Below are positions 743 to 25,450 of a stretch of DNA of 64,000 nt, in pieces. A program made the position numbers and the translations under genes. The notes beneath the pieces are model-generated. The model was not told where the DNA came from. It saw only the letters and a list, made by a program, of their open reading frames with translations, and ran no database searches. Positions within the stretch are counted from its first letter, which is position 1. Each line of letters starts with the position of its first letter. Source of the DNA: Pythium myriotylum (lineage: Eukaryota; Oomycota; Peronosporomycetes; Pythiales; Pythiaceae); contig JALJCQ010000013.1 of NCBI GenBank assembly GCA_023091665.1, positions 744,001 through 808,000 on the forward strand. Direction: 5' to 3'.

Positions 743-1106
743 CCTAGGTGCGTTTTGTCTCTTATGCTCGAAGTCCCCAAGTTTAAGAAACGTCTCGGGT
801 TCTGAGATGCCACGAGAGAAACGATGGATCGACTGGCCAAGTGCGTCGGGCTTGAAGCTATTTTAATAGATAGTGTTCCGTTTGTCTCATGCTACGTAAG
901 CCGAGTTGGTGAGTCTCAGGAAACTCGGAAGACGTGATCAAAGAATAAGTTGGCACCGTCACAGCAAACGTCCCAGGAACTCATTTTCGTTAATTAGGCT
1001 AGGCTAGCTTCTGACATGGGTACACCAGGGTTTACTCAGCGCGACGAATCTTTGGAGGCATCGCCAAAGGGGTAGGGGATGGTGACGTGGGGCGCAATGG
1101 ATGATT

Positions 1107-1137
1107 CTGGTCCTCGCGCATCATCCGCGAGAACCAG
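1107..1137. repeat. Short inverted repeat (12-bp arms)
   Basis: Arms 1107-1118 and 1126-1137 are reverse complements with one mismatch, around a 7-base loop. Confidence 0.6.
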
Positions 1138-1591
1138 TTACTTCAACCAGTCGTTTTTTTTGTTGTTGTTCTCCTCTCGAAATTGGTTCTCCTCCTGAAA
1201 ATTGACTCACTCGGAGGAGAGCGTCCGCCAGTCGACGCCTTTGACCAATTTGCTTGTCGCACGGAAGCCCCCATGCGCGGCCACCAACACACCAAACGAG
1301 AGCGTCGCGCTGCGAAACCCAGAGTGTTCTAGTCGGTGGTTCTTCCGTGTCGCAGAACGTTCTTTGCTGGTCGAACGCAACGCCACCCTCTCGCATCTTT
1401 CCTTCCACGGGAACCATGGATTACTTCTTGGTGCGCCAAAGAACCAATAATGGTCTCCTCCCCATCCGGATCTTTTCGGTTGGGGGGAGGAGAACAGTTC
1501 GTAACCGTGAGGACAAACGGTGAGGAAGACCTCGGAAGGAGCTCTCTGGCTGTCCTCCACCAGAACCCGAGGACCAGTCGTCTGGAATGCT

Positions 1592-1643
1592 TGGTGGGTG
1601 GCGAGTAATTGTAGTAATGGTGGGTGGCGAGTAATTGTAGTAA
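1592..1643. repeat. 26-bp perfect tandem duplication
   Basis: Two identical adjacent 26-base units (1592-1617 and 1618-1643), in noncoding sequence. Confidence 0.9.
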
Positions 1644-2405
1644 TATTCGTCCAGAACGGATCCGAGGAGAGGCGTCTGCGACGGAACTGATCCAGGGCCA
1701 GCCGCTCACGGTTCTTGCACTCGTTGAATTGGAACCATCCGTGTGGTCCGTCTCCACGAGGACCTACCTGTCAGATTCGATCTTTTATTAATTCCAGGTC
1801 CCACCATCTTTGAGGAAGCGGAGCAAGGTTGGCTCCATGAACCGGATATCTCCCACGGAACGTTTCGCAGCCAATCCCATCCAGAAGAAGAATACGGTAA
1901 ACTTCGACTGATAACTCGAAAGGAGGGCTAGGGGATCGAATTAGTATCCATGAGAAAGGGCAAGAGGGTACTGTACCCTCCGCCGGCCGCCGCCGCCGCC
2001 GCCGTCCCCAAATCGTAACCCATACACCCACCAAGTCATTTTCTCAACCCGAGTCCACCGGATCTGGTTCTGTGTGCCCAAACGGTTTATGGACCAATGA
2101 GGGGAAGGGCAAAGCGTCAATCAGGGGAGGGGGAACGCGCCGCCGGCTGGCCGTCGCCGCGGGGGGGCCACCGGACGGCTCGGGGCGCCTTCCGCGTCAT
2201 ACTTGAATCCGGGGAATCCGGCGTCCATCAACGCTCTCCGCGGACCTCGCGACGAGCTCCGTCGCACGCAGTCCCGGAAAAAGCGCCGCTCGCCGCTCGC
2301 CGTCGCGTGGGTATTTGCGCCCTCGCACCGTCGCACGCACGCCTCTCGCTCTTCCTCGCTCTCTTCTTCTCTCTTCTTCTTCTCGTCGCCACCACGCCGT
2401 TCGCC

Positions 2406-3470
2406 ATGGGCAGCGCCGCGAAAGCGAGAGCCGCGCGCGCGGCCGAGTCGGCGTCCGCGCGCCGCCTCGACGGCCAGAGCCTCATGCCCACGCACGTCAA
2501 GGCCTCGGGCGTGCTCCACAAGTCGGTGCGCGGCGTCGTCGCGGCCTTTGTGGCCTCGGCGCGCCCGCTCGGCTCGGCCGGCGCCGTCGTCGGGCTCGTC
2601 TGGGTCGCGCTCAAGATCGTCGACCGCTTCCAGCTCTGGATGACCGCCGCCGGCGTGCTCATGGTCGTGCTCAGCGTCGCGAGCGCGTTCCAGGAGGTCG
2701 CCAAGCAGCACGCAACGCGCGAGTTCCTCGACCAGCAGGATGTCGAGCAGTGCAAGATGATCACGATCCCGACGCCCGAGAAGGACGTCGCGCTCACCAT
2801 GACCGCCGAGACCAAGCCCGTCGACGTGCAGCTCAGCGTCGCGTCGCCCGCGCTCGTGGCGACCACCCCAGCCAAGGCCTCCCCCATTGCGGAGCCCGCG
2901 GCCAAGCCCGTGCGCCGCAACAGCAGCACCATCGAGCTCGGCGACAACGAACTGACCGTCGTCCACTGCGGCACGGTCATCGAGATCCAGGGCTCGCGTG
3001 GCCTCATCATGCCGCACAGCCTTGGTGAGAGCAAGACGACCGCCACCAAGCTCTCGGGCCGCTTCAACCGCCCGGCCTCGACCAAGCCCTCGGGCTCGCA
3101 GCTCGCCTCGCTCCAGCACAAGCTGCCTCTCGTGATCGCCTTCGAGATCTCCTCGGTCCTCGCCGTTCTCCGCCACCAGATCATGGTCGGCCAGACTGTC
3201 GAGTTCACGTTCCCAGGTGACGAGAACAGCCCCGAGACGGTCCACGCGACCAACGTGACGCCCGTGTCGCCCGACGCCGAGATCGTCAAGAGCCGCCACG
3301 CGCTGCAGACCTGCAAGCTCGCACGCGAGGAAACGTTCGCACGAGCGATGGGCAAAGTCACGATGATCTCGCCCCGGAACGAGCCCATCAAGCACCACGT
3401 CGACCTCATCAAGTACGCCGAGTTCCTCGACGACGACGACGCGGACCTGCCGCTCGACTGCTTCATCTAA
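2406..3470 (+). CDS. Hypothetical protein with N-terminal membrane segments
   Basis: A single-exon frame of 354 aa from the ATG at 2406, which sits in a GCCATGG context after a long pyrimidine-rich leader. The open frame extends further upstream to 2097, but that part is Arg/Pro-rich, low in complexity and looks like 5' leader. Two hydrophobic stretches lie at about residues 58-78 and 82-98, so the protein is probably membrane-anchored. A Pro/Ala/Thr-rich linker follows. The C-terminal half (about residues 175-340) is mixed alpha/beta-looking and ends in an acidic DDDDAD run. I do not recognise a family. The strong GC-rich codon use and long open frame support real coding. Its neighbour downstream is convergent. 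Confidence 0.7.
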   Translation: MGSAAKARAARAAESASARRLDGQSLMPTHVKASGVLHKSVRGVVAAFVASARPLGSAGAVVGLVWVALKIVDRFQLWMTAAGVLMVVLSVASAFQEVAKQHATREFLDQQDVEQCKMITIPTPEKDVALTMTAETKPVDVQLSVASPALVATTPAKASPIAEPAAKPVRRNSSTIELGDNELTVVHCGTVIEIQGSRGLIMPHSLGESKTTATKLSGRFNRPASTKPSGSQLASLQHKLPLVIAFEISSVLAVLRHQIMVGQTVEFTFPGDENSPETVHATNVTPVSPDAEIVKSRHALQTCKLAREETFARAMGKVTMISPRNEPIKHHVDLIKYAEFLDDDDADLPLDCFI

Positions 3471-3811
3471 ACCGAGCGTCCTGTATAACGAGATCGCGAT
3501 GATTTCCGTTGACCCCCGGCGACTCGTATTTACTACCCCGACTGCAGATAGTTTCCATTCCGACGCAGACCAGACGTCCAGAATCCATGACGAGAGCCAG
3601 TCACGACCAGACGCAGCCACCCGCGTGACCCGACACGACGATTGTAGTCGTGGGATCAACGGCCCGCGCGGTCTCAGCGATGTGTCTCTTCTTAACTTGC
3701 CTCTAAACTGGAAATCCCGACTTTGGAAATCGTTTATGGTATCCTCTTCTGCTTCCCTAGTTATCTAAGAACCCACCCGTCTGGAAGACGACTCGGTAAT
3801 CCTGCTTCAAA
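3471..3811. other. Convergent intergenic spacer
   Basis: 341 bp between two 3' ends; nothing beyond presumed 3' untranslated sequence is visible. Confidence 0.5.
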
Positions 3812-4892
3812 CTACTCAGTCTGGGTCTTGCCCTGCTTGAGGATCGCCTCCAGGGACGAAGAAGAAGCGGCTGCGAGTGGTGTCTCTCCGTCGTTGTCCT
3901 CAACGTCAACGAAGGCCCCGTGCTGGACGAGAAGCTGAGCCATCTCGTCGTCTTCACAGTTGACAGCGTAGTGCAATGGAGTCATACCCTCGGCATCCTA
4001 GCCATAGATACCCCGGTTAGAGAGTGAACGCTCCACTACGCTTCCACTAGTATATTACAAACTGACCTGGACATTCGGTGATGCCTTGTGCTTGAGTAGC
4101 AGCTCAGCAACATCGCTCTGCGATCGATCCACTGCCCAGTGAAGCATCGTGCGGCCTTCGTCGTCCTGTGCGTCGACGTCTCCCCCACGCGCCAACGCCT
4201 GCTCCACTTTGGCCAGGTCCCCCGTGCTGGCAAAGTGGAAAATGTCCTCCTTGACCTGCCACTCGGGCGCCGAGAGGTCGACCGTGGGCATGCTCTGCAC
4301 GCCACCCATGCCCGTGGCGCTGTCGTTACCCCCATCCTGGATCTTCTCAGCCAGTGGGTGCGGACCTCGCTTGTGGGCCTCGCCCGTCTCATCGAAATGC
4401 GGGAACAGCTCTTTGACCAGCCCAATGTACTGCTGCTTGGAGACTTCGCGCGGCATGTCGCCGAGCGCCATCCAGCTCTCCCACTTGGCGCGCGCAGCCA
4501 CGTCAATGGCCGACGGCTTGACACTCGCGTCGCATTTGCCGAGCACCGCTTGCTTGTAGAACGCGTAGAGCGTCAGTCGCTGGCCACGCACACACACAAA
4601 CCGGCACCAATAAGCTCCCCATTCATAACAGCATGCACCTTCCCTTGAGGACTCTCGATACCTGTTCATTCGAGAGCTTGGCGTTGGTTTGTGTGCCGAC
4701 AAAGTCGACGGCGACCTGGAACTTGGCGTCGGCCTCGCTCAGCCCCTGCTGGAGATATTCTTTCAGCGTCAGCGAGGCGAGCTTGCTGGCCTTTCGGAAC
4801 CGCTGGTCGAGCCATCGCTTGATCACGACGGGCACCACGACGCCCACGAGGATCGCCAGGAGCACCTGGAGGAGCTGCCAGTCCATCGCCAT
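3812..4892 (-). CDS. Acyl-CoA-binding domain/ankyrin protein, membrane-anchored (ACBD6-like)
   Basis: Three exons on the minus strand: 4662-4892, 4067-4579 and 3812-3997, with canonical GT..AG borders that keep the frame; about 309 aa. An N-terminal hydrophobic segment (about residues 7-24) can anchor it to a membrane. The second exon opens with an acyl-CoA-binding domain: the LYAFYKQA motif, then the KWESW helix and YIGLVKELFP, which match the ligand-binding helices of the ACBP fold. After a linker come ankyrin repeats (DEGRTMLHWAVDRS, then in exon 3 DAEGMTPLHYAVN). Known family: ACBP-plus-ankyrin proteins bind and deliver long-chain acyl-CoA at the ER. The added N-terminal anchor is also known from plant and fungal membrane ACBPs. 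It is transcribed divergently from the methyltransferase at 5112 across a 219-bp shared promoter. Confidence 0.85.
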
Positions 4893-5111
4893 TTTCCACT
4901 TTGTCTCTTGACCAGCTCATCGCACCGGTGCGGAAACCGGTATTTGGGGCTAGTTTGCGTGATGTGGACCACGTTGTCAAACTTCAACTGGTTCGACGTG
5001 GAGGTGAGAGCGACGACCTTGTCCCAGAGAGAGAACAACGGCCGAATCCGACCTGTGTTTGGCTCGCAGTCGCCACTTCTAGACTTGTCGATCCCCAGCA
5101 ACTTAAGCAGC
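4893..5111. promoter_or_regulatory. Bidirectional promoter interval
   Basis: 219 bp between the divergent starts of the ACBP/ankyrin gene (minus) and the first homocysteine S-methyltransferase (plus). No specific element was identified. Confidence 0.4.
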
Positions 5112-6080
5112 ATGGCCAAGCGGGACCTGGAGATCATCGTGGGCAGCTGCGCGGTCACGGAGGAGCTCTTCAAGCGCGGGCTTGTTAACGACCGCAACAT
5201 GCTCGGCGCCAGTGCGCTCGTGAACACCAAGAACCACGATCTCGTGGTCGAGACCCACAAAGCCTTTATCGAAGCCGAAGCTTCTGCGATCGTGACGAGC
5301 AATTATCAGGTCGTCCCGGGACTCGGCTTCACGCAAGAAGAGATCCGCGAGTACACTCGCCACGCTGGGCGTCTCGCTGTCGAGGCACGCCGAGAAGCGA
5401 ACAAAGCGGCGACCGTGAAGATCTGGGGCTCCATGCCTCCGCTGATGCCAGGGTACCGCGCTGACCGCACGATCGAGCGCGGTGAGGGCCACGATGTCTA
5501 CTTGCTGATTGGCGAAGCGCTGTGGCCCTTCGTCGACGCCTACGTAATCGAGTCCATGTCGTCGGCCAAAGAAGCGAAAATGGCGTACGAAGCGGTTTAC
5601 CACCTGAAGAAGCCCGTTATGGTCTCGTTTGCGTTGAACAGTACAGGTGAAGAGCTCCGCAGTGGTGAGCCGCTGCTGGAGGCTATTGAGAAGCTGCTCG
5701 ACTTCAGTGACAAACTCGCAACCGACAACAACGTTGACAACGTGCTCAAGTCGATCCTTTTCAACTGCTCGCAGCCCGAGGACATCACGAAGGCGCTCGC
5801 GCACATCAAGGACTCGGAGATCGCGCAGGAGATGCTCAATGGCCATAGCCTCGAGCTAGGCGCGTACGGCGACCGCATCTCGTCCACCTCGACGGCCGGT
5901 GTGCTGGAGGAGAAGCTCGTGGCCGGTGCGATGCAGTCGGCGCTGGACATGGAGATCTACACGCGCTTCGTGCAGCGTTGGATCGAGAGCGGCGCCTCGC
6001 TCGTCGGCGGTTGCTGCAGCATCCCGCCTTCGTACATCGCCCACCTTGCTCAGAATCTTGAGACAGGCGACATGCCATGA
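5112..6080 (+). CDS. Homocysteine S-methyltransferase family protein (copy 1)
   Basis: A single-exon gene of 322 aa from the ATG at 5112. Known family: Hcy-binding (pfam02574) enzymes are zinc-dependent TIM barrels that transfer a methyl group from S-methylmethionine or betaine to homocysteine. The zinc ligands are visible: Cys in the FNCSQPE strand motif (about residue 219) and the paired Cys in GGCCSIPP near the C terminus. The N terminus starts directly with the first barrel strand (IIVGSCAVTEELF), where most family members have the DGG(M/T)GT motif. Here it reads VGSCAVTEE, so the substrate site may differ. It is followed 144 bp downstream by a paralogue in the same orientation, clearly a tandem duplication. 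Length is normal for the family (about 300-330 aa). The exact methyl donor cannot be told from sequence. Confidence 0.88.
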   Translation: MAKRDLEIIVGSCAVTEELFKRGLVNDRNMLGASALVNTKNHDLVVETHKAFIEAEASAIVTSNYQVVPGLGFTQEEIREYTRHAGRLAVEARREANKAATVKIWGSMPPLMPGYRADRTIERGEGHDVYLLIGEALWPFVDAYVIESMSSAKEAKMAYEAVYHLKKPVMVSFALNSTGEELRSGEPLLEAIEKLLDFSDKLATDNNVDNVLKSILFNCSQPEDITKALAHIKDSEIAQEMLNGHSLELGAYGDRISSTSTAGVLEEKLVAGAMQSALDMEIYTRFVQRWIESGASLVGGCCSIPPSYIAHLAQNLETGDMP

Positions 6081-8844: not shown

Positions 8845-9288
8845 TTAACTAGTCGCGCTCATACGCGCGCGCTGCAGCTCGCGCACAGTCGCGCGCAGCG
8901 CCGCGAGCTCGGCCTCCAAGGCTGCGAGCTTGTCGCTGAGCTCGCGCTGGATCTCGTTGACGGACTGGACGAGGTAGGGCGTGAGCTTGGCGTACTCGAG
9001 CGACCGCCAGCCGTTGCCGTCGGTCGCCACGAGCTCGGGCAACACTTGCTCGACTTCGTCGGCGATGAAGCCCGCAAATCGCCCGGATGGGAAACGCCGA
9101 GCCGGAAACGCGTCTCGCCGCCACTCGTACGTGACCTACAGAGATCCACAAAGAGAAGAAGAAAGTCGGTGAATGAGCAGCATGAACAGCAGGATTGGGA
9201 GTGCGGATCCACTTACAGGTCGCAACCGCGCGAGCAATCGTGAGGCGTCGGTGAGGCTTTCCACGTTCAACTTCAGTCGGGAGTCCGA
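8845..9288 (-). other. S74-type intramolecular chaperone auto-processing domain (within giant gene)
   Basis: The last about 120 residues, split by an 81-bp intron (9136-9216). The motif S-D-S-R-L-K gives the predicted catalytic Ser and Lys, with cleavage expected immediately before the Ser. The conserved core (V-T-Y-E-W, G-F-I-A-D-E-V, L-P-E-L-V, Y-x-x-L-x-P-Y-L-V) and a C-terminal heptad-type helix (LAALEAELAALRATV) are all present. Confidence 0.8.
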
Positions 9289-12200
9289 AGGTGCGGGCGT
9301 GGCCTGCGCGTGAACACTACCCGATAGGTAGATGTCCCCGTCGATACCAACGCCTCCACTGACGACGAGCGCACCATCCGTGTACGCGGTGGAACTTGTC
9401 GTCGATGTTATCTTCAGGACTCCACTGATCGTTGCCGCCCCACTGATTGAAGCCGTACCCGAGACAACAGCGTTGCCAGTCACAGTCGCGTCACTCTGAA
9501 CAGAGAGGCCACCAGTTGTAACAGTGATACCGCCCGAATTCACGACGATATTATCTTGTACAACCAGATTCCCAGAAGCAACCGTGGCGCCTCCGGCAGT
9601 GACGGTGAGACCGGTGTCGACAACCTCGAAGCCGGAGCTGACAGCGGCGCCGCCGTTCATTGTTGCCTTGCCTGTGGTTGTGGACGTTCCGGATATCGCG
9701 ATGTTGCCTGTGATCGTGGTTGCACCAGTCACTGCAAGCCCACCTCCTGAGACCGTGATACCACTAGAGGAAGTGACTGTTCCTGCGATGGTCGCGCCGC
9801 CAGCGGTGATCGAGAGTCCTCCAGCGTTGATGGTCGTTCGTCCGGACGCTTCGACGGTGAACGCTGCGACGCTGTTGGCGGTCGCGGCGATGAGTTTGAA
9901 GTCGTTCGACGCTTGAGTGGCTCTAGAGGCTGTGAGTTTGAGCAGCGTGTCGGTGAACCCGGTGTTCGTGTTGGAGACAGCGAGAGTCGACACGGCGACC
10001 TGGTTGTCAGCGACGGTGGCCGCGCCTGCCGTCACTGTCAATCCGCCTGCTGTGACAGTAAGACCAGTATCGGCAACCTTGAGGCCTCCAGCAATCGTTG
10101 CTGCTCCGTTGAGAGTCGAACCACCACTGATAGTTGAGCCGCCAGTTATTGTTGCCCCACCAGCAATCGTGGCGCCTCCGGCAGTGACGGTGAGACCAGT
10201 GTCGACAACCTCGAAGCCCGAGCTGACGGCGGCGCCGCCGTTCATTGTTGCCTTGCCTGTGGTTGTGGACGTTCCGGATATCGCGATGTTGCCTGTGATC
10301 GTGGTTGCACCAGTCACTGCAAGCCCACCTCCTGAGACCGTGATACCACTAGAGGAAGTGACTGTTCCTGCGATGGTCGCGCCGCCAGCGGTGATCGAGA
10401 GTCCTCCAGCGTTGATGGTCGTTCGTCCGGACGCTTCGACGGTGAACGCTGCGACGCTGTTGGCGGTCGCGGCGATGAGTTTGAAGTCGTTCGACGCTTG
10501 AGTGGCTCTAGAGGCTGTGAGTTTGAGCAGCGTGTCGGTGAACCCGGTGTTCGTGTTGGAGACAGCGAGAGTCGACACGGCGACCTGGTTGTCAGCGACG
10601 GTGGCCGCGCCTGCCGTCACTGTCAATCCGCCTGCTGTGACAGTAAGACCAGTATCGGCAACCTTGAGGCCTCCAGCAATCGTTGCTGCTCCGTTGAGAG
10701 TCGAACCACCACTGATAGTTGAGCCGCCAGTTATTGTTGCCCCACCAGCAATCGTGGCGCCTCCGGCAGTGACGGTGAGACCAGTGTTGACAACCTCGAA
10801 GCCCGAGCTGACGGCGGCACCACCGTTCATCGTGGCTTTCCCGGTCATCGTCGTGGTGCCCGTGATCGTGGCCGTGCCACCAACCGAGAGCCCGCCAGCT
10901 GTGACGGTGAGACTTCCCGTGGTGACGACAAGGTTTCCGGCTGCGATCGCGGCGCCCCCAGTAGTGACGGTGAGACCGGTATCGGCGACCCTGAGCCCTC
11001 CAGTGACCGTGGCGCCTCCGGCAGTGACGGTGAGACCGGTGTCGACAACCTCGAAGCCGGAGCTGACAGCGGCGCCGCCGTTCATTGTTGCCTTGCCTGT
11101 GGTTGTGGACGTTCCGGATATCGCGATGTTGCCTGTGATCGTGGTTGCACCAGTCACTGCAAGCCCACCTCCTGAGACCGTGATACCACTAGAGGAAGTG
11201 ACTGTTCCTGCGATGGTCGCGCCGCCAGCGGTGATCGAGAGTCCTCCAGCGTTGATGGTCGTTCGTCCGGACGCTTCGACGGTGAACGCTGCGACGCTGT
11301 TGGCGGTCGCGGCGATGAGTTTGAAGTCGTTCGACGCTTGAGTGGCTCTAGAGGCTGTGAGTTTGAGCAGCGTGTCGGTGAACCCGGTGTTCGTGTTGGA
11401 GACAGCGAGAGTCGACACGGCGACCTGGTTGTCAGCGACGGTGGCCGCGCCTGCCGTCACTGTCAATCCGCCTGCTGTGACAGTAAGACCAGTATCGGCA
11501 ACCTTGAGGCCTCCAGCAATCGTTGCTGCTCCGTTGAGAGTCGAACCACCACTGATAGTTGAGCCGCCAGTTATTGTTGCCCCACCAGCAATCGTGGCGC
11601 CTCCGGCAGTGACGGTGAGACCAGTGTCGACAACCTCGAAGCCCGAGCTGACGGCGGCGCCGCCGTTCATTGTTGCCTTGCCTGTGGTTGTGGACGTTCC
11701 GGATATCGCGATGTTGCCTGTGATCGTGGTTGCACCAGTCACTGCAAGCCCACCTCCTGAGACCGTGATACCACTAGAGGAAGTGACTGTTCCTGCGATG
11801 GTCGCGCCGCCAGCGGTGATCGAGAGTCCTCCAGCGTTGATGGTCGTTCGTCCGGACGCTTCGACGGTGAACGCTGCGACGCTGTTGGCGGTCGCGGCGA
11901 TGAGTTTGAAGTCGTTCGACGCTTGAGTGGCTCTAGAGGCTGTGAGTTTGAGCAGCGTGTCGGTGAACCCGGTGTTCGTGTTGGAGACAGCGAGAGTCGA
12001 CACGGCGACCTGGTTGTCAGCGACGGTGGCCGCGCCTGCCGTCACTGTCAATCCGCCTGCTGTGACAGTAAGACCAGTATCGGCAACCTTGAGGCCTCCA
12101 GCAATCGTTGCTGCTCCGTTGAGAGTCGAACCACCACTGATAGTTGAGCCGCCAGTTATTGTTGCCCCACCAGCAATCGTGGCGCCTCCGGCAGTGACGG

Positions 12201-15200
12201 TGAGACCAGTGTCGACAACCTCGAAGCCCGAGCTGACGGCGGCGCCGCCGTTCATTGTTGCCTTGCCTGTGGTTGTGGACGTTCCGGATATCGCGATGTT
12301 GCCTGTGATCGTGGTTGCACCAGTCACTGCAAGCCCACCTCCTGAGACCGTGATACCACTAGAGGAAGTGACTGTTCCTGCGATGGTCGCGCCGCCAGCG
12401 GTGATCGAGAGTCCTCCAGCGTTGATGGTCGTTCGTCCGGACGCTTCGACGGTGAACGCTGCGACGCTGTTGGCGGTCGCGGCGATGAGTTTGAAGTCGT
12501 TCGACGCTTGAGTGGCTCTAGAGGCTGTGAGTTTGAGCAGCGTGTCGGTGAACCCGGTGTTCGTGTTGGAGACAGCGAGAGTCGACACGGCGACCTGGTT
12601 GTCAGCGACGGTGGCCGCGCCTGCCGTCACTGTCAATCCGCCTGCTGTGACAGTAAGACCAGTATCGGCAACCTTGAGGCCTCCAGCAATCGTTGCTGCT
12701 CCGTTGAGAGTCGAACCACCACTGATAGTTGAGCCGCCAGTTATTGTTGCCCCACCAGCAATCGTGGCGCCTCCGGCAGTGACGGTGAGACCAGTGTTGA
12801 CAACCTCGAAGCCCGAGCTGACGGCGGCACCACCGTTCATCGTGGCTTTCCCGGTCATCGTCGTGGTGCCCGTGATCGTGGCCGTGCCACCAACCGAGAG
12901 CCCGCCAGCTGTGACGGTGAGACTTCCCGTGGTGACGACAAGGTTTCCGGCTGCGATCGCGGCGCCCCCAGTAGTGACGGTGAGACCGGTATCGGCGACC
13001 CTGAGCCCTCCAGTGACCGTGGCGCCTCCGGCAGTGACGGTGAGACCGGTGTCGACAACCTCGAAGCCGGAGCTGACAGCGGCGCCGCCGTTCATTGTTG
13101 CCTTGCCTGTGGTTGTGGACGTTCCGGATATCGCGATGTTGCCTGTGATCGTGGTTGCACCAGTCACTGCAAGCCCACCTCCTGAGACCGTGATACCACT
13201 AGAGGAAGTGACTGTTCCTGCGATGGTCGCGCCGCCAGCGGTGATCGAGAGTCCTCCAGCGTTGATGGTCGTTCGTCCGGACGCTTCGACGGTGAACGCT
13301 GCGACGCTGTTGGCGGTCGCGGCGATGAGTTTGAAGTCGTTCGACGCTTGAGTGGCTCTAGAGGCTGTGAGTTTGAGCAGCGTGTCGGTGAACCCGGTGT
13401 TCGTGTTGGAGACAGCGAGAGTCGACACGGCGACCTGGTTGTCAGCGACGGTGGCCGCGCCTGCCGTCACTGTCAATCCGCCTGCTGTGACAGTAAGACC
13501 AGTATCGGCAACCTTGAGGCCTCCAGCAATCGTTGCTGCTCCGTTGAGAGTCGAACCACCACTGATAGTTGAGCCGCCAGTTATTGTTGCCCCACCAGCA
13601 ATCGTGGCGCCTCCGGCAGTGACGGTGAGACCAGTGTTGACAACCTCGAAGCCCGAGCTGACGGCGGCACCACCGTTCATCGTGGCTTTCCCGGTCATCG
13701 TCGTGGTGCCCGTGATCGTGGCCGTGCCACCAACCGAGAGCCCGCCAGCTGTGACGGTGAGACTTCCCGTGGTGACGACAAGGTTTCCGGCTGCGATCGC
13801 GGCGCCCCCAGTAGTGACGGTGAGACCGGTATCGGCGACCCTGAGCCCTCCAGTGACCGTGGCGCCTCCGGCAGTGACGGTGAGACCGGTGTCGACAACC
13901 TCGAAGCCGGAGCTGACAGCGGCGCCGCCGTTCATTGTTGCCTTGCCTGTGGTTGTGGACGTTCCGGATATCGCGATGTTGCCTGTGATCGTGGTTGCAC
14001 CAGTCACTGCAAGCCCACCTCCTGAGACCGTGATACCACTAGAGGAAGTGACTGTTCCTGCGATGGTCGCGCCGCCAGCGGTGATCGAGAGTCCTCCAGC
14101 GTTGATGGTCGTTCGTCCGGACGCTTCGACGGTGAACGCTGCGACGCTGTTGGCGGTCGCGGCGATGAGTTTGAAGTCGTTCGACGCTTGAGTGGCTCTA
14201 GAGGCTGTGAGTTTGAGCAGCGTGTCGGTGAACCCGGTGTTCGTGTTGGAGACAGCGAGAGTCGACACGGCGACCTGGTTGTCAGCGACGGTGGCCGCGC
14301 CTGCCGTCACTGTCAATCCGCCTGCTGTGACAGTAAGACCAGTATCGGCAACCTTGAGGCCTCCAGCAATCGTTGCTGCTCCGTTGAGAGTCGAACCACC
14401 ACTGATAGTTGAGCCGCCAGTTATTGTTGCCCCACCAGCAATCGTGGCGCCTCCGGCAGTGACGGTGAGACCGGTGTCGACAACCTCGAAGCCGGAGCTG
14501 ACAGCGGCGCCGCCGTTCATTGTTGCCTTGCCTGTGGTTGTGGACGTTCCGGATATCGCGATGTTGCCTGTGATCGTGGTTGCACCAGTCACTGCAAGCC
14601 CACCTCCTGAGACCGTGATACCACTAGAGGAAGTGACTGTTCCTGCGATGGTCGCGCCGCCAGCGGTGATCGAGAGTCCTCCAGCGTTGATGGTCGTTCG
14701 TCCGGACGCTTCGACGGTGAACGCTGCGACGCTGTTGGCGGTCGCGGCGATGAGTTTGAAGTCGTTCGACGCTTGAGTGGCTCTAGAGGCTGTGAGTTTG
14801 AGCAGCGTGTCGGTGAACCCGGTGTTCGTGTTGGAGACAGCGAGAGTCGACACGGCGACCTGGTTGTCAGCGACGGTGGCCGCGCCTGCCGTCACTGTCA
14901 ATCCGCCTGCTGTGACAGTAAGACCAGTATCGGCAACCTTGAGGCCTCCAGCAATCGTTGCTGCTCCGTTGAGAGTCGAACCACCACTGATAGTTGAGCC
15001 GCCAGTTATTGTTGCCCCACCAGCAATCGTGGCGCCTCCGGCAGTGACGGTGAGACCAGTGTTGACAACCTCGAAGCCCGAGCTGACGGCGGCACCACCG
15101 TTCATCGTGGCTTTCCCGGTCATCGTCGTGGTGCCCGTGATCGTGGCCGTGCCACCAACCGAGAGCCCGCCAGCTGTGACGGTGAGACTTCCCGTGGTGA

Positions 15201-18200
15201 CGACAAGGTTTCCGGCTGCGATCGCGGCGCCCCCAGTAGTGACGGTGAGACCGGTATCGGCGACCCTGAGCCCTCCAGTGACCGTGGCGCCTCCGGCAGT
15301 GACGGTGAGACCGGTGTCGACAACCTCGAAGCCGGAGCTGACAGCGGCGCCGCCGTTCATTGTTGCCTTGCCTGTGGTTGTGGACGTTCCGGATATCGCG
15401 ATGTTGCCTGTGATCGTGGTTGCACCAGTCACTGCAAGCCCACCTCCTGAGACCGTGATACCACTAGAGGAAGTGACTGTTCCTGCGATGGTCGCGCCGC
15501 CAGCGGTGATCGAGAGTCCTCCAGCGTTGATGGTCGTTCGTCCGGACGCTTCGACGGTGAACGCTGCGACGCTGTTGGCGGTCGCGGCGATGAGTTTGAA
15601 GTCGTTCGACGCTTGAGTGGCTCTAGAGGCTGTGAGTTTGAGCAGCGTGTCGGTGAACCCGGTGTTCGTGTTGGAGACAGCGAGAGTCGACACGGCGACC
15701 TGGTTGTCAGCGACGGTGGCCGCGCCTGCCGTCACTGTCAATCCGCCTGCTGTGACAGTAAGACCAGTATCGGCAACCTTGAGGCCTCCAGCAATCGTTG
15801 CTGCTCCGTTGAGAGTCGAACCACCACTGATAGTTGAGCCGCCAGTTATTGTTGCCCCACCAGCAATCGTGGCGCCTCCGGCAGTGACGGTGAGACCAGT
15901 GTTGACAACCTCGAAGCCCGAGCTGACGGCGGCACCACCGTTCATCGTGGCTTTCCCGGTCATCGTCGTGGTGCCCGTGATCGTGGCCGTGCCACCAACC
16001 GAGAGCCCGCCAGCTGTGACGGTGAGACTTCCCGTGGTGACGACAAGGTTTCCGGCTGCGATCGCGGCGCCCCCAGTAGTGACGGTGAGACCGGTATCGG
16101 CGACCCTGAGCCCTCCAGTGACCGTGGCGCCTCCGGCAGTGACGGTGAGACCGGTGTCGACAACCTCGAAGCCGGAGCTGACAGCGGCGCCGCCGTTCAT
16201 TGTTGCCTTGCCTGTGGTTGTGGACGTTCCGGATATCGCGATGTTGCCTGTGATCGTGGTTGCACCAGTCACTGCAAGCCCACCTCCTGAGACCGTGATA
16301 CCACTAGAGGAAGTGACTGTTCCTGCGATGGTCGCGCCGCCAGCGGTGATCGAGAGTCCTCCAGCGTTGATGGTCGTTCGTCCGGACGCTTCGACGGTGA
16401 ACGCTGCGACGCTGTTGGCGGTCGCGGCGATGAGTTTGAAGTCGTTCGACGCTTGAGTGGCTCTAGAGGCTGTGAGTTTGAGCAGCGTGTCGGTGAACCC
16501 GGTGTTCGTGTTGGAGACAGCGAGAGTCGACACGGCGACCTGGTTGTCAGCGACGGTGGCCGCGCCTGCCGTCACTGTCAATCCGCCTGCTGTGACAGTA
16601 AGACCAGTATCGGCAACCTTGAGGCCTCCAGCAATCGTTGCTGCTCCGTTGAGAGTCGAACCACCACTGATAGTTGAGCCGCCAGTTATTGTTGCCCCAC
16701 CAGCAATCGTGGCGCCTCCGGCAGTGACGGTGAGACCAGTGTCGACAACCTCGAAGCCGGAGCTGACAGCGGCGCCGCCGTTCATTGTTGCCTTGCCTGT
16801 GGTTGTGGACGTTCCGGATATCGCGATGTTGCCTGTGATCGTGGTTGCACCAGTCACTGCAAGCCCACCTCCTGAGACCGTGATACCACTAGAGGAAGTG
16901 ACTGTTCCTGCGATGGTCGCGCCGCCAGCGGTGACCGAGAGTCCTCCAGCGTTGATGGTCGTTCGCCCAGAAGCTGCAACCGTGAACGCCGTGATGGAGG
17001 TCGCTCCAACATTTGTTTGGATGAGGTTGAAGTCCGATGCGACTCCGAGCGACGAGGTTCCGGCTGTGAGTAAGAGCAAGGCAGACCCAGCGGTAATGCC
17101 AGTACCCGCATTCTTGATGGTCGTGACCGTGCCGCTGGTCGCGGAGTCTGCGATGACCGCGCCTCCTGATGTGACGGAGAGTCCTGCCGCGATGGTGGCA
17201 CCGTCTGCGTCGACTGTGAGCCCTCCGCTGTGAATGGTCGCGCCGCCAGCGGTGACCGAGAGTCCTCCAGCGTTGATGGTCGTTCGTCCAGAAGCTGCAA
17301 CCGTGAACGCCGTGATGGAGGTCGCTCCAACACTTGTTTGGATGAGGTTGAAGTCCGATGCAACTCCGAGCGACGAGGTTCCGGCTGTGAGTAAGAGCAA
17401 GGCAGACCCAGCGGTAATGCCAGTGCCCGCATTCTTGATGGTCGTGACCGTGCCGCTGGTCGCGGAGTCTGCGATGACCGCGCCTCCTGATGTGACGGAG
17501 AGTCCTGCCGCGATGGTGGCACCGTCTGCGTCGACTGTGAGCCCTCCGCTGTGAATGGTCGCGCCGCCAGCGGTGACCGAGAGTCCTCCAGCGTTGATGG
17601 TCGTTCGTCCAGAAGCTGCAACCGTGAACGCCGTGATGGAGGTCGCTCCAACACTTGTTTGGATGAGGTTGAAGTCCGATGCGACTCCGAGCGACGAGGT
17701 TCCGGCTGTGAGTAAGAGCAAGGCAGACCCAGCGGTAATGCCAGTACCCGCATTCTTGATGGTCGTGACCGTGCCGCTGGTCGCGGAGTCTGCGATGACC
17801 GCGCCTCCTGATGTGACGGAGAGTCCTGCCGCGATGGTGGCACCGTCTGCGTCGACTGTGAGCCCTCCGCTGTGAATGGTCGCGCCGCCAGCGGTGACCG
17901 AGAGTCCTCCAGCGTTGATGGTCGTTCGTCCAGAAGCTGCAACCGTGAACGCCGTGATGGAGGTCGCTCCAACATTTGTTTGGATGAGGTTGAAGTCCGA
18001 TGCGACTCCGAGCGACGAGGTTCCGGCTGTGAGTAAGAGCAAGGCAGACCCAGCGGTAATGCCAGTACCCGCATTCTTGATGGTCGTGACCGTGCCGCTG
18101 GTCGCGGAGTCTGCGATGACCGCGCCTCCTGATGTGACGGAGAGTCCTGCCGCGATGGTGGCACCGTCTGCGTCGACTGTGAGCCCTCCGCTGTGAATGG

Positions 18201-21200
18201 TCGCGCCGCCAGCGGTGACCGAGAGTCCTCCAGCGTTGATGGTCGTTCGTCCAGAAGCTGCAACCGTGAACGCCGTGATGGAGGTCGCTCCAACATTTGT
18301 TTGGATGAGGTTGAAGTCCGATGCGACTCCGAGCGACGAGGTTCCGGCTGTGAGTAAGAGCAAGGCAGACCCAGCGGTAATGCCAGTACCCGCATTCTTG
18401 ATGGTCGTGACCGTGCCGCTGGTCGCGGAGTCTGCGATGACCGCGCCTCCTGATGTGACGGAGAGTCCTGCCGCGATGGTGGCACCGTCTGCGTCGACTG
18501 TGAGCCCTCCGCTGTGAATGGTCGCGCCGCCAGCGGTGACCGAGAGTCCTCCAGCGTTGATGGTCGTTCGTCCAGAAGCTGCAACCGTGAACGCCGTGAT
18601 GGAGGTCGCTCCAACATTTGTTTGGATGAGGTTGAAGTCCGATGCGACTCCGAGCGACGAGGTTCCGGCTGTGAGTAAGAGCAAGGCAGACCCAGCGGTA
18701 ATGCCAGTACCCGCATTCTTGATGGTCGTGACCGTGCCGCTGGTCGCGGAGTCTGCGATGACCGCGCCTCCTGATGTGACGGAGAGTCCTGCCGCGATGG
18801 TGGCACCGTCTGCGTCGACTGTGAGCCCTCCGCTGTGAATGGTCGCGCCGCCAGCGGTGACCGAGAGTCCTCCAGCGTTGATGGTCGTTCGTCCAGAAGC
18901 TGCAACCGTGAACGCCGTGATGGAGGTCGCTCCAACACTTGTTTGGATGAGGTTGAAGTCCGATGCGACTCCGAGCGACGAGGTTCCGGCTGTGAGTAAG
19001 AGCAAGGCAGACCCAGCGGTAATGCCAGTACCCGCATTCTTGATGGTCGTGACCGTGCCGCTGGTCGCGGAGTCTGCGATGACCGCGCCTCCTGATGTGA
19101 CGGAGAGTCCTGCCGCGATGGTGGCACCGTCTGCGTCGACTGTGAGCCCTCCGCTGTGAATGGTCGCGCCGCCAGCGGTGACCGAGAGCCCCCCGTTGCT
19201 GATGGTCGTTCGTCCAGAAGCCTCGACCGTGAATGCCGTGACAAGGTTTGCCTTGGCCTCGATGAGCTTGAAGTCTGTCGCGCCTGGGTACAACGTGCCT
19301 CGAGCTGCGGTGATCTGCAGAACAGAGGAAGCAAACGCGCCAGTGCTATCGGTGTTGGATATCACAGCGGTGGGGGACGCAGTGGCTGAATCGGTGATGG
19401 TAGCTCCGTTGGCGTCGACTGTGAGCCCTCCGCTGTGAATGGTCGCGCCGCCAGCGGTGACCGAGAGCCCCCCGTTGCTGATGGTCGTTCGTCCAGAAGC
19501 CTCGACCGTGAATGCCGTGACAAGGTTTGCCTTGGCCTCGATGAGCTTGAAGTCTGTCGCGCCTGGGTACAACGTGCCTCGAGCTGCGGTGATCTGCAGA
19601 ACAGAGGAAGCAAACGCGCCAGTGCTATCGGTGTTGGATATCACAGCGGTGGGGGACGCAGTGGCTGAATCGGTGATGGTAGCTCCGTTGGCGTCGACTG
19701 TGAGCCCTCCGCTGTGAATGGTCGCGCCGCCAGCGGTGACCGAGAGCCCCCCGTTGCTGATGGTCGTTCGTCCAGAAGCCTCGACCGTGAATGCCGTGAC
19801 AAGGTTTGCCTTGGCCTCGATGAGCTTGAAGTCTGTCGCGCCTGGGTACAACGTGCCTCGAGCTGCGGTGATCTGCAGAACAGAGGAAGCAAACGCGCCA
19901 GTGCTATCGGTGTTGGATATCACAGCGGTGGGGGACGCAGTGGCTGAATCGGTGATGGTAGCTCCGTTGGCGTCGACTGTGAGCCCTCCGCTGTGAATGG
20001 TCGCGCCGCCAGCGGTGACCGAGAGCCCCCCGTTGCTGATGGTCGTTCGTCCAGAAGCCTCGACCGTGAATGCCGTGACAAGGTTTGCCTTGGCCTCGAT
20101 GAGCTTGAAGTCTGTCGCGCCTGGGTACAACGTGCCTCGAGCTGCGGTGATCTGCAGAACAGAGGAAGCAAACGCGCCAGTGCTATCGGTGTTGGATATC
20201 ACAGCGGTGGGGGACGCAGTGGCTGAATCGGTGATGGTAGCTCCGTTGGCGTCGACTGTGAGCCCTCCGCTGTGAATGGTCGCGCCGCCAGCGGTGACCG
20301 AGAGCCCCCCGTTGCTGATGGTCGTTCGTCCAGAAGCCTCGACCGTGAATGCCGTGACAAGGTTTGCCTTGGCCTCGATGAGCTTGAAGTCTGTCGCGCC
20401 TGGGTACAACGTGCCTCGAGCTGCGGTGATCTGCAGAACAGAGGAAGCAAACGCGCCAGTGCTATCGGTGTTGGATATCACAGCGGTGGGGGACGCAGTG
20501 GCTGAATCGGTGATGGTAGCTCCGTTGGCGTCGACTGTGAGCCCTCCGCTGTGAATGGTCGCGCCGCCAGCGGTGACCGAGAGCCCCCCGTTGCTGATGG
20601 TCGTTCGTCCAGAAGCCTCGACCGTGAATGCCGTGACAAGGTTTGCCTTGGCCTCGATGAGCTTGAAGTCTGTCGCGCCTGGGTACAACGTGCCTCGAGC
20701 TGCGGTGATCTGCAGAACAGAGGAAGCAAACGCGCCAGTGCTATCGGTGTTGGATATCACAGCGGTGGGGGACGCAGTGGCTGAATCGGTGATGGTGGCT
20801 CCGTTGGCGTCGACTGTGAGCCCTCCGCTGTGAATGGTCGCGCCGCCAGCGGTGACCGAGAGCCCCCCGTTGCTGATGGTCGTTCGTCCAGAAGCCTCGA
20901 CCGTGAATGCCGTGACAAGGTTTGCCTTGGCCTCGATGAGCTTGAAGTCTGTCGCGCCTGGGTACAACGTGCCTCGAGCTGCGGTGATCTGCAGAACAGA
21001 GGAAGCAAACGCGCCAGTGCTATCGGTGTTGGATATCACAGCGGTGGGGGACGCAGTGGCTGAATCGGTGATGGTAGCTCCGTTGGCGTCGACTGTGAGC
21101 CCTCCGCTGTGAATGGTCGCGCCGCCAGCGGTGACCGAGAGCCCCCCGTTGCTGATGGTCGTTCGTCCAGAAGCCTCGACCGTGAATGCCGTGACAAGGT

Positions 21201-24200
21201 TTGCCTTGGCCTCGATGAGCTTGAAGTCTGTCGCGCCTGGGTACAACGTGCCTCGAGCTGCGGTGATCTGCAGAACAGAGGAAGCAAACGCGCCAGTGCT
21301 ATCGGTGTTGGATATCACAGCGGTGGGGGACGCAGTGGCTGAATCGGTGATGGTAGCTCCGTTGGCGTCGACTGTGAGCCCTCCGCTGTGAATGGTCGCG
21401 CCGCCAGCGGTGACCGAGAGCCCCCCGTTGCTGATGGTCGTTCGTCCAGAAGCCTCGACCGTGAATGCCGTGACAAGGTTTGCCTTGGCCTCGATGAGCT
21501 TGAAGTCTGTCGCGCCTGGGTACAACGTGCCTCGAGCTGCGGTGATCTGCAGAACAGAGGAAGCAAACGCGCCAGTGCTATCGGTGTTGGATATCACAGC
21601 GGTGGGGGACGCAGTGGCTGAATCGGTGATGGTAGCTCCGTTGGCGTCGACTGTGAGCCCTCCGCTGTGAATGGTCGCGCCGCCAGCGGTGACCGAGAGC
21701 CCCCCGTTGCTGATGGTCGTTCGTCCAGAAGCCTCGACCGTGAATGCCGTGACAAGGTTTGCCTTGGCCTCGATGAGCTTGAAGTCTGTCGCGCCTGGGT
21801 ACAACGTGCCTCGAGCTGCGGTGATCTGCAGAACAGAGGAAGCAAACGCGCCAGTGCTATCGGTGTTGGATATCACAGCGGTGGGGGACGCAGTGGCTGA
21901 ATCGGTGATGGTGGCTCCGTTGGCGTCGACTGTGAGCCCTCCGCTGTGAATGGTCGCGCCGCCAGCGGTGACCGAGAGCCCCCCGTTGCTGATGGTCGTT
22001 CGTCCAGAAGCCTCGACCGTGAATGCCGTGACAAGGTTTGCCTTGGCCTCGATGAGCTTGAAGTCTGTCGCGCCTGGGTACAACGTGCCTCGAGCTGCGG
22101 TGATCTGCAGAACAGAGGAAGCAAACGCGCCAGTGCTATCGGTGTTGGATATCACAGCGGTGGGGGACGCAGTGGCTGAATCGGTGATGGTAGCTCCGTT
22201 GGCGTCGACTGTGAGCCCTCCGCTGTGAATGGTCGCGCCGCCAGCGGTGACCGAGAGCCCCCCGTTGCTGATGGTCGTTCGTCCAGAAGCCTCGACCGTG
22301 AATGCCGTGACAAGGTTTGCCTTGGCCTCGATGAGCTTGAAGTCTGTCGCGCCTGGGTACAACGTGCCTCGAGCTGCGGTGATCTGCAGAACAGAGGAAG
22401 CAAACGCGCCAGTGCTATCGGTGTTGGATATCACAGCGGTGGGGGACGCAGTGGCTGAATCGGTGATGGTAGCTCCGTTGGCGTCGACTGTGAGCCCTCC
22501 GCTGTGAATGGTCGCGCCGCCAGCGGTGACCGAGAGCCCCCCGTTGCTGATGGTCGTTCGTCCAGAAGCCTCGACCGTGAATGCCGTGACAAGGTTTGCC
22601 TTGGCCTCGATGAGCTTGAAGTCTGTCGCGCCTGGGTACAACGTGCCTCGAGCTGCGGTGATCTGCAGAACAGAGGAAGCAAACGCGCCAGTGCTATCGG
22701 TGTTGGATATCACAGCGGTGGGGGACGCAGTGGCTGAATCGGTGATGGTAGCTCCGTTGGCGTCGACTGTGAGCCCTCCGCTGTGAATGGTCGCGCCGCC
22801 AGCGGTGACCGAGAGCCCCCCGTTGCTGATGGTCGTTCGTCCAGAAGCCTCGACCGTGAATGCCGTGACAAGGTTTGCCTTGGCCTCGATGAGCTTGAAG
22901 TCTGTCGCGCCTGGGTACAACGTGCCTCGAGCTGCGGTGATCTGCAGAACAGAGGAAGCAAACGCGCCAGTGCTATCGGTGTTGGATATCACAGCGGTGG
23001 GGGACGCAGTGGCTGAATCGGTGATGGTGGCTCCGTTGGCGTCGACTGTGAGCCCTCCGCTGTGAATGGTCGCGCCGCCAGCGGTGACCGAGAGCCCCCC
23101 GTTGCTGATGGTCGTTCGTCCAGAAGCCTCGACCGTGAATGCCGTGACAAGGTTTGCCTTGGCCTCGATGAGCTTGAAGTCTGTCGCGCCTGGGTACAAC
23201 GTGCCTCGAGCTGCGGTGATCTGCAGAACAGAGGAAGCAAACGCGCCAGTGCTATCGGTGTTGGATATCACAGCGGTGGGGGACGCAGTGGCTGAATCGG
23301 TGATGGTAGCTCCGTTGGCGTCGACTGTGAGCCCTCCGCTGTGAATGGTCGCGCCGCCAGCGGTGACCGAGAGCCCCCCGTTGCTGATGGTCGTTCGTCC
23401 AGAAGCCTCGACCGTGAATGCCGTGACAAGGTTTGCCTTGGCCTCGATGAGCTTGAAGTCTGTCGCGCCTGGGTACAACGTGCCTCGAGCTGCGGTGATC
23501 TGCAGAACAGAGGAAGCAAACGCGCCAGTGCTATCGGTGTTGGATATCACAGCGGTGGGGGACGCAGTGGCTGAATCGGTGATGGTGGCTCCGTTGGCGT
23601 CGACTGTGAGCCCTCCGCTGTGAATGGTCGCGCCGCCAGCGGTGACCGAGAGCCCCCCGTTGCTGATGGTCGTTCGTCCAGAAGCCTCGACCGTGAATGC
23701 CGTGACAAGGTTTGCCTTGGCCTCGATGAGCTTGAAGTCTGTCGCGCCTGGGTACAACGTGCCTCGAGCTGCGGTGATCTGCAGAACAGAGGAAGCAAAC
23801 GCGCCAGTGCTATCGGTGTTGGATATCACAGCAACAGGCACTGTTGTTCTAGTGTCGACGATGGTCGCTCCACCGCTGAGAACATTTAGACCAAGTGTGA
23901 CAATAGTCACGCCGGCTTGGACCTTGAGATATCCGGTTGAGACCTCCATGTTGCCTTGCTGCAATTTGGTGTTTCCAAATGCATCCATTGTCATAATCGT
24001 GTAGGATCCGGACTCGATCAGGATGAATTGAAAGTCTGGGGCTGACAGTTTGGTAGTTTTCAAGTGCAAGACTGTTCCAGTGTATGTCTGGCCCTGGGGA
24101 TTTACTAAGAACCCGTCATTGTCGTCGATGTTATCTGGAACGTTTGAAGGCTGGTTGCAGTCTATGCCTTTGAAGTCTGCGTAGCAGAGGCAGAGTCCAG

Positions 24201-25450
24201 TGCCAAAGTCGCAAAGACCTCGATTCGAACAATAGGCGTGCTCTGCAGCCACCACCAATGAATTCAAAACCGTTCTATGGCAAAGCGATGTAACAGTCAC
24301 TCACCGATCACGTTCGTCGCCACGACATCTGTGATAACGCAAGTCGGACCAACAGTGTTGGCGTTCACAACGCCGCTAACGTCACACGTAAAGCTGGTGA
24401 GAGGCGGATTTCCCCAGTGGAAGAAAATATTGTTTTCCGTGTCTCCATGGTTCCATTCGCTGAAGACCACAGTGTACTGCGCTCCCTTGTTGGTGTCTGG
24501 GTTTGTGACAGTGCATGACGCTTGCCTCACGTTTGCCATGGCGCTAAAGGCGGCGCTACACGACGCGTCCGAGTTGCCACTAGAACTCGCATCCAATGAG
24601 GCCACTTGACCATTAAAGGCCACGCGAATAACCCCCGAGAGGACGCCGCCAGTCGCACCAGTCGTTACCTTGATCGTACGATATCCCTGACTCACCGTCA
24701 GTGGATCATCGTTCTTGGGACACATGCCTACAGAGACCAAGCCATTTCAGCCATAGCAAACCGTGATGAGGAGCACAACTGGCACTCACGCATCGAACAG
24801 TCGGGACCAGTGAATCCCATGTCGCAGTAACAAGCTGTCACGCTATCTTTCTCCCAGTTTGTGTAGGTGGGGCCGACACCGTTCCCGGCAATGTTAGGAG
24901 TCGAATCCGGTCCGTATTGAAGTGCAAGCTGCGCGAGTGAGTAGCAGATACCGTGGCCCGAACAGTCGTTCGGGCATCGCACTGGCCACGGCACACTCAG
25001 CTGAGAAATCTACCAAAACCAAAGAAGCAAAGCCGGCACTCACTGCGCTGGCAGGCGGCGCCTGTGTAGCCCGCGTAGCAGACGCACTCGCCCTTGGTGT
25101 AGTCGCAGATGCCTCGGTTCGAGCACTCGGTCGCCGCATGAGCCACGTTCGGAGCGGACGCCTTGTCGGACCATGCCGGGCCACTTGGGCACTTCCGTTG
25201 GGAACAGTCCGGCGCGCCCCATGCCGAGTCGCACGTGCACTTGCTGCAAGCAAGCCAAGACCAATGTGAGCGATCGATCCCGCTCATTACATGACGCGAG
25301 CACCGTCGCTGAGACCTACTTGGACGCGCCGCACTGGCCGTGGCCCGAGCAGAAATTCGGGCACGCGGCGTCGACACGCCACAGCGCCACTAGCGCCACC
25401 AGTGCCACAACCACGACCACGCTCGGCATGGCTCCCGACCGCCTCGTCAT
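8845..25450 (-). CDS. Giant secreted EGF/repeat protein with C-terminal S74 chaperone domain
   Basis: Six exons on the minus strand: 25320-25450, 25044-25243, 24790-24981, 24305-24727, 9217-24242 (15,026 bp) and 8845-9135, with canonical borders; total 16,263 nt, 5,420 aa. Residues 1-28 are a signal peptide (SVVVVVALVALVAL core). Three EGF-like modules follow (about 30-57, 58-109, 112-172; CSGHG/CSNRG cores), then a 140-residue Cys-containing domain, a fourth EGF-like module (about 319-344), about 4,900 residues of Gly/Thr/Ala/Val repeats, and from about residue 5301 an S74/intramolecular-chaperone domain. That domain shows SDSRLK at its start, then GFIADEVEQVLPELV, LEYAKLTPYLVQS and a terminal coiled coil. 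Known family: such domains trimerise phage tail fibres and MYRF, then cleave themselves off just before the Ser. Inference: a trimeric, fibrous cell-surface or secreted adhesin. The pre-repeat exons are evidently real because the EGF cysteine pattern runs across each splice. Confidence 0.85.
9560..16912 (-). repeat. 585/840-bp long tandem repeats (10 copies) in giant gene
   Basis: Identical anchor points recur at 9917, 10502, 11342, 11927, 12512, 13352, 14192, 14777, 15617 and 16457. Spacings are 585, 840, 585, 585, 840, 840, 585, 840 and 840 bp. The long form is the short form plus a 255-bp (85-aa) module. All lengths are multiples of three. Each unit encodes strings of GGLTVTAGGATI-type beta motifs. 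Confidence 0.95.
16913..19159 (-). repeat. 321-bp tandem repeats (7 copies) in giant gene
   Basis: Seven units of 321 bp (107 aa) at 16913, 17234, 17555, 17876, 18197, 18518 and 18839. They are almost identical; the main variants are Asn/Ser at one position (aacattt versus aacactt) and a few silent changes. Confidence 0.95.
19160..23858 (-). repeat. 279-bp tandem repeats (17 copies) in giant gene
   Basis: Units of exactly 279 bp (93 aa) begin at 19160 and recur to 23624; the seventeenth is partial at its outer end. Units are essentially identical, apart from one diagnostic A/G site (ggtagctcc or ggtggctcc) that recurs mostly every fourth unit. Confidence 0.95.

Follow-up and report, generated by a model that had tools for sequence, protein, structure and literature searches.

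A Pythium myriotylum gene for a very long protein joining EGF modules, a repeat shaft, and a C-terminal S74 chaperone domain, likely a self-cleaving trimeric fiber

Introduction

Descriptions of S74 chaperone domains come from phages, viruses of protists, some bacteria, and the MYRF transcription factors (PMC3742443, PMC10769870, PMC12220804). Here we compare these systems with a gene of the oomycete Pythium myriotylum that encodes an S74 domain at the end of a very long repetitive protein with epidermal growth factor (EGF)-like modules at its N-terminus. The gene lies in a 64,000-nt stretch (hereafter, the window), C13:744001-808000, of a genome assembly of 58.7 Mb in 55 contigs. The nearest working parallel is the S74 subgroup of the mosaic adhesive trimer (MAT) fibers of Bdellovibrio bacteriovorus. 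Like the fiber that we propose for the oomycete, they are cell-encoded, surface-displayed long fibers ending in an autoproteolytic S74 chaperone; tagged MAT proteins were seen on the Bdellovibrio surface, and a Ser-to-Ala replacement abolished S74 processing. They differ in being bacterial and about 1,000 aa in length, and EGF modules are not mentioned in the available part of that report; display and glycan binding were shown in Bdellovibrio (PMC10769870), whereas the oomycete fiber is a prediction from its gene.

The nearest eukaryotic S74 is that of MyRF. The ICA domains of MYRF and MrfA are S74-type with a Ser…Lys pair, as in the window protein, but these proteins are membrane-bound transcription factors and not secreted fibers. 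Phage long tail fibers (S16, PDB ID: 6f45; PHROG 8215, 5668, and 1699) have the S74 domain and the preceding stalk in common with the window protein. They are phage structural proteins, whereas the window gene is host-encoded, with introns and host neighbors, and a 216-aa query from its repeats had no phage match. The S74 fibers of polinton-like viruses resemble the window protein as large modular proteins with one C-terminal S74 domain in protist genomes (PMC12220804); however, they belong to viral elements, and four low-GC S74 frames of the P. myriotylum genome formed a separate tree group. At the other end of the protein, stramenopile mastigoneme proteins have a signal peptide, three to four EGF modules, and no transmembrane domain, a plan like that of the N-terminus of the window protein with its signal-peptide-like segment; they differ in that the one shown is 64 kDa, and neither a fiber nor S74 is reported in the available part of that work (PMC12223298). 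The only oomycete literature naming S74 or endosialidase that we found was the work on polinton-like viruses (PMC12220804). A description of oomycete EGF-S74 proteins was not found in the open-licence literature, although one may exist elsewhere.

Results

The six-exon gene was located on the minus strand, from 25450 to 8845, and re-translation of the spliced exons gave 5,420 aa, the same coordinates and approximate length as proposed in a first-pass annotation made from the DNA letters. Exon 1 (25320..25450) contained the start codon at 25450, a signal-peptide-like segment, and the first half of EGF 1; exon 2 (25044..25243) contained the end of EGF 1 and EGF 2; and exon 3 (24790..24981) contained EGF 3. 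Exon 4 (24305..24727) encoded a cysteine-containing module of residues 177–315 that begins CPKNDDPLT and is conserved in Phytophthora capsici. Exon 5 (9217..24242; 15,026 bp) encoded EGF 4, a conserved spacer from residue 356, all repeats (residues ~450–5250), a stalk (TSTTSSTAYTDGALVVSGGVGI...; 9319..9417) that precedes S74 and also resembles phage fiber families, and the first part of the S74 domain (9217..9288), which holds the catalytic-type SDSRLK motif. An 81-bp GT-AG intron (9136..9216) lay within the S74 domain, and exon 6 (8845..9135) encoded the remaining S74 (to about 9028), a presumed helical, coiled-coil tail, and the stop codon. All five introns had GT…AG ends, with lengths of 76, 62, 62, 62, and 81 bp. 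The last cysteine occurred by residue 350, with none downstream in the protein.

In Pfam searches of the spliced protein, Peptidase_S74 matched residues 5301–5360 across the exon 5/6 junction (E 7e-13; score 49.1 bits, cut-off 22), and EGF_Teneurin (E 2.1e-18; five stretches) and EGF_2 (E 8e-15; four stretches) also scored above their cut-offs. Membership of the window protein in the S74 and EGF families is thus shown by profile, and the first-pass annotation's prediction of an S74 chaperone joined to eukaryotic EGF modules was borne out. The module of residues 177–315 gave a weak match to DUF7298, below the cut-off (E 0.008). The S74 match supports the exon 5/6 splice because the intron interrupts the domain; the two halves become one domain only through this canonical intron. 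The SDSRLK motif starts at Ser5301, and its lysine is Lys5306, so the catalytic pair is five residues apart, as in SDxRxK. The spacing equals that of S578 and K583 of MYRF, a pair defined for MYRF and phage endosialidases (PMC3742443). No letter N was present across the window, and exon 5 alone spanned EGF 4, the repeats, and SDSRLK without interruption. Because this one exon carries everything from the last EGF module through the repeats to the S74 catalytic motif, the EGF end and the S74 end belong to one gene, as had been claimed from the exon structure. The openness of the 15-kb frame counts for little on its own, since no more than 1,187 of 5,401 20-mers were distinct.

The shaft was composed of three arrays on the minus strand: an A-type array (19117..23832) with 16.9 copies of a 93-aa (279-bp) unit at 99% matches, a B-type array (16913..19241) with 7.3 copies of a 107-aa (321-bp) unit at 99% matches, and a C-type array (9849..16974; coordinates calculated by placing protein positions on the exon map) with ten units, half of them 195 aa and half 280 aa long. 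Thirty-four ASGRTTI anchors delimited 33 complete intervals (16 × 93, 7 × 107, 5 × 195, and 5 × 280 aa). The copies were nearly identical in DNA, the 16 A-units having only two DNA versions, which makes the number of repeats dependent on the assembly. Silent codon differences from the consensus outnumbered replacing ones in the 93-aa units (4:0) and the 195-aa units (8:1), and there were none in the 280-aa units. Between unit types, the proportion of silent differences (pS 0.46–0.75) exceeded that of replacing differences (pN 0.23–0.35), suggesting protein-level constraint on the repeats. Hydropathy and Gly-Gly spacing in the repeats recurred at 6–7, 12, and 14 residues.

When the last 152 residues were compared with the same genome, there were three matches, two of which were the gene itself. 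The third, at C13:3499419-3499811 (36% identity), belonged to a shorter gene whose 866-codon frame runs without interruption through an EGF module, a spacer, a stalk, and S74. Using this frame as the query, 27 proteins were found at E ≤ 0.001 among the 7,991 best candidates scored. Twenty of these (P0006 to P0025) all contained S74, 14 of them together with the EGF model PF07974. The members of this short family, about 780–1,370 aa, are hypothetical proteins with the same architecture as the window protein, and came from named sources including Pythium oligandrum, P. insidiosum, P. brassicae, Lagenidium giganteum, two Globisporangium and three Phytophthora species, and Aphanomyces invadans. 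Aphanomyces represents the other main oomycete branch, which argues that the EGF-S74 plan is old. A query of EGF 4 and the spacer, restricted to proteins of about 1,870–5,950 aa, recovered two proteins among 563 candidates. One of them, DVH05_022724 of Phytophthora capsici (P0034; 4,865 aa), had EGF and S74 in the same plan and probably corresponds to the window gene. Its N-terminus was 60% identical (264/438) and its S74 region 49% identical (65/132) to those of the window protein. The repeats shared no 8-mer but retained a distant likeness, the best local matches of single window units being 37/73, 43/101, and 79/192 identical. The ends have thus been retained, whereas the shaft has diverged and been re-amplified in each lineage. 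The other protein, annotated as 'Tenascin' in P. ramorum (P0033; 2,270 aa), had the N-terminus in common, and its deposited model lacked S74. The deposited sequence of P0033 ends with an arginine-rich segment that seems to be read in the wrong frame, and the model may be wrong.

The EGF-S74 architecture is represented in databases by hypothetical proteins of no assigned function, and to judge by these sequences the plan is spread across oomycete genera. The first-pass annotation had allowed for unannotated homologues; the P. capsici protein and the short family are such homologues and show the plan outside this genome as well. An EGF-type search of the P. myriotylum genome gave 34 matching stretches, five of them in the window gene, and three such loci were read.

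The N-terminus of the window protein had a hydropathy peak of 2.44 at residues 5–23. Sequons (N-x-S/T) were counted on non-redundant sequence and compared with 500 shuffles. The whole protein contained none (11.9 expected) and its P. capsici counterpart one (12.1 expected); in the repeats alone there were none in either (6.6 and 7.3 expected, respectively). In each of these four comparisons, all 500 shuffles gave higher counts. For the whole proteins of P. myriotylum and P. capsici, respectively, the controls lay near expectation, with 11 and 12 for the reversed motif (11.6 and 12.1 expected), 12 and 12 for N-x-x-S/T (11.8 and 11.8), 11 and 16 for D-x-S/T (11.4 and 17.7), and 8 and 17 for N-S/T (12.4 and 12.5). 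Only the diverged repeats approach a second observation of the depletion because the N-terminal parts are homologous. The short family was less depleted (49 sequons, 107.8 expected; 20 proteins), and seven host neighbors of the gene were slightly depleted (18, 25.2 expected). The lack of sequons would suit passage through the endoplasmic reticulum (ER) and tight packing along the length of the protein. Secretion, which the first-pass annotation had also proposed, appears well supported, if indirectly, by the N-terminal hydrophobic segment together with the sequon depletion.

PHROG tail and fiber families matched the last 167 aa, including the stalk before S74 (best E 4.7e-22), and tblastn searches of phages gave 251 records, all below 60% identity. 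A sequence search of the PDB aligned S5301, D5302, R5304, and K5306 with the S16 long tail fiber 6f45 (E 0.0016) and also found MYRF (E 0.0042). In an AlphaFold2 (AF2) monomer model of a short-family member, the top PDB match was the MyRF ICA domain 7dc3 (E 2.5e-4, probability 1.00, 28% identity); the only matches at E ≤ 0.001 were three MyRF ICA chains, with the S74 chaperones 3gw6 and 3gud lower (E ~0.1–0.2), and a long helix followed S74. The detectable resemblance to viral fibers is limited to S74 and the short preceding stalk. The phage tail-spike architecture that had been assigned to the whole C-terminal part accordingly held for S74 and the stalk, and a 216-aa repeat query had no match in phages or viral contigs.

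The gene had host-type neighbors, encoding DENN, Vps39, PI3/4-kinase, and RCC1 proteins. S74 domains were found at 32 places in the genome, a count that does not include the split domain of the window gene. Eight were read: two in a giant frame described below, one in the short relative, and five in low-GC frames. These low-GC frames (GC 0.37–0.40; L002, L004, L006, L007, and L008) were distributed over several contigs, and beside four of the five lay the same conserved gene. Their appearance is that of inserted polinton-like viruses; Pfam searches of two frames adjoining low-GC S74 frames gave nothing significant. For a tree of S74 domains, an SDxRxK-type pattern picked out 48 domains, of which 46 (43 different) were used; P0007 and P0023 were left out because the second motif was lacking, and sequences lacking the pattern were never part of the set. 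The presence of the SDxRxK pattern within this set is consequently no evidence. The giant frame's two domains grouped at 100/97 and four low-GC frames of this genome at 100/99; the long host pair (the window protein and that of P. capsici) had 92/76 and the short host family 85/76, both under the 95/80 mark. The separate groups indicate that the host S74 domains did not come recently from those four low-GC elements. The tree does not single out the virus or bacterium from which the host domains were derived.

The giant frame was one uninterrupted reading frame of 41,729 codons (C13:2696605-2821794) with two internal S74 domains, and no N occurred in the 160 kb fetched around it. Read from Met26, it encodes 41,704 residues (3.61 MDa), with an N-terminal hydrophobic segment and repeats rich in S, G, and V. 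For scale, PKZILLA-1 has about 45,200 residues and titin about 36,000. Only 6,750 of its 41,710 20-mers were distinct, so much of its openness is inherited from the repeats; the first 2,000 residues were all distinct and still open. Among sampled repeat copies, differences fell at the third codon position in 252 cases against 117 and 119 at the other two, and of the codon changes 146 were silent and 167 replacing, counted in windows of different periods that overlap. At period 674, replacing changes exceeded silent changes, 27 to 11. Both S74 domains were followed by a similar stretch and then by new repeats. Sequons were not depleted in this frame (59, 53.4 expected), and the depletion is thus not universal. 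A similar frame of 1,390 codons lay just upstream. On C3, at about 599800-632600, there was an 11,741-codon frame with repeats like those of the giant frame. About 8 kb beyond the giant frame, at C13:2829720-2833507, an EGF-module gene had the EGF-CPxGDDP plan of the window gene's N-terminus.

Elsewhere in the window, a protein with a Crinkler effector N-terminal domain was encoded at 57903-59672 on the minus strand (E 4.1e-17). Elicitin matches numbered 135 in the same genome. Together with the Crinkler protein and the nearest named homologues, from Pythium, Lagenidium, and Phytophthora, they mark the genome as that of an oomycete.

Discussion

The window contains a real gene with an unusual plan that is conserved across oomycetes and, as far as we searched, undescribed. 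We consider it probable, though well short of certain, that its product is a secreted, very long homotrimeric fiber that is folded and then cut at Ser5301 by its own S74 chaperone. The signal peptide would direct the protein into the ER, and the disulphide-rich EGF end would serve as a base or anchor facing other cell-surface or matrix proteins. The shaft would consist of 34 repeat units, each a small knob with short β-strand stalks. The C-terminal S74 and coiled coil would gather three chains, set their register, and fold the shaft from that end, after which self-cleavage before Ser5301 would give a mature fiber of ~5,270 residues per chain and a free 120-residue chaperone. The fiber may then be displayed on, or shed from, the surface of a spore, cyst, or hypha as a long adhesive or spacer. 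A trimeric, self-cut fiber is likely; the β-fold of the shaft, trimerization, cleavage, and surface display are what we infer, and a role in adhesion, suggested for zoospores or cysts in the first-pass annotation, is a guess. This reading predicts a trimer, a cut at Ser5301, and no N-glycans. If the rise per residue is like that of Bd3182 of Bdellovibrio, which spans about 550 Å and has its cleavage site at residue 782 (PMC10769870), the fibers would be roughly 0.3–0.4 µm long.

Several results weigh against the proposed fiber. Both PDB sequence matches missed the default limit of 0.001, and the monomer models were poor, with pLDDT values of 52.4 for the short-family member and 51.7 for two A-units. 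A 216-aa repeat query gave no match to phages or viral contigs at the sensitivities used, and with the shaft lacking such a match, the fiber fold rests on S74, composition, and spacing. The 107-aa B-units had four silent and five replacing changes from their consensus. Within the repeats, two sequon controls were also low: the reversed motif in P. capsici (3, 7.2 expected; 24 of 500 shuffles) and D-x-S/T in the window protein (2, 5.7 expected; 19 of 500 shuffles). Simple hydropathy gave no clear membrane anchor, the highest value being 1.63 at residue 426 in the repeats, and retention on the cell is therefore unexplained.

The main rival is a role in flagellar hairs, because the EGF plan resembles that of described mastigoneme proteins. 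The EGF end would sit in the hair and the long fiber would form a filament; the N-terminus of the window protein, with its signal-peptide-like segment and EGF modules, follows that plan of a signal peptide and three to four EGF modules (PMC12223298), and other EGF-type relatives are present in this genome. The main text of the same report mentions neither S74 nor endosialidase, and we regard this role as unlikely, if worth keeping in mind. Somewhat less probable again is a storage or coat protein of zoospore vesicles that is released at encystment and is not a receptor-binding adhesin. Its size and repetition are like those of known large repetitive Phytophthora vesicle proteins, and its secretion signals are compatible; however, an S74 chaperone would seem costly for a bulk protein, and conservation of the two termini contrasts with turnover of the middle. 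A direct identity with the hooked hairs of Saprolegnia cysts was dropped as a leading interpretation, the nearest named homologues being from Pythium, Lagenidium, and Phytophthora. Sterol cyclase is present in Saprolegniales and is not known from Peronosporales; a sterol-cyclase profile search gave no match, a weak negative, as its 14 controls matched two prokaryotes and include no named oomycete.

That the gene is a captured fiber gene of a polinton-like or giant virus, still arriving or a relic, might be argued from the low-GC, viral-looking frames at five of the eight S74 places read, from the resemblance of the stalk to viral fibers, and from the S74 domains on long fiber proteins of up to 3.9k aa in polinton-like viruses (PMC12220804). 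The introns, EGF exons, and ordinary host neighbors speak against it, as do the pairing of the window protein with that of P. capsici in the S74 tree, apart from the four low-GC frames, and the spread of the plan over oomycete genera; we give capture very little credence, and a viral relic or contamination was rejected on these grounds. Two adjoining genes, or a join made in assembly, would have nothing but repetitiveness in their favor and are scarcely credible: EGF 4 and SDSRLK share one uninterrupted exon, by which two genes were discarded, the same plan occurs in P. capsici, and a relative has EGF and S74 in one frame.

Beyond this gene, we suggest only tentatively, and with more doubt than belief, that oomycetes have a class of giant S74-folded extracellular fibers, in which the window gene would represent an EGF-anchored branch and the 41,729-codon frame a second branch of self-cleaving polyproteins that gives three trimeric fibers. 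The product of about 3.6 MDa would be cut at its two S74 domains into fibers of about 1,700, 24,150, and 15,800 residues per chain. If so, it would be among the largest eukaryotic proteins, its fibers would be micrometers long, and the phage folding chaperone would be a general means by which a eukaryotic cell folds very long secreted fibers and releases them. For the window gene itself, a half-megadalton secreted eukaryotic S74 fiber would, if confirmed, give the domain a new use and eukaryotes a new type of extracellular protein. Conserved ends on either side of a sequon-free shaft that is freely replaced form a pattern that may assist in recognizing other such fibers by sequence alone.

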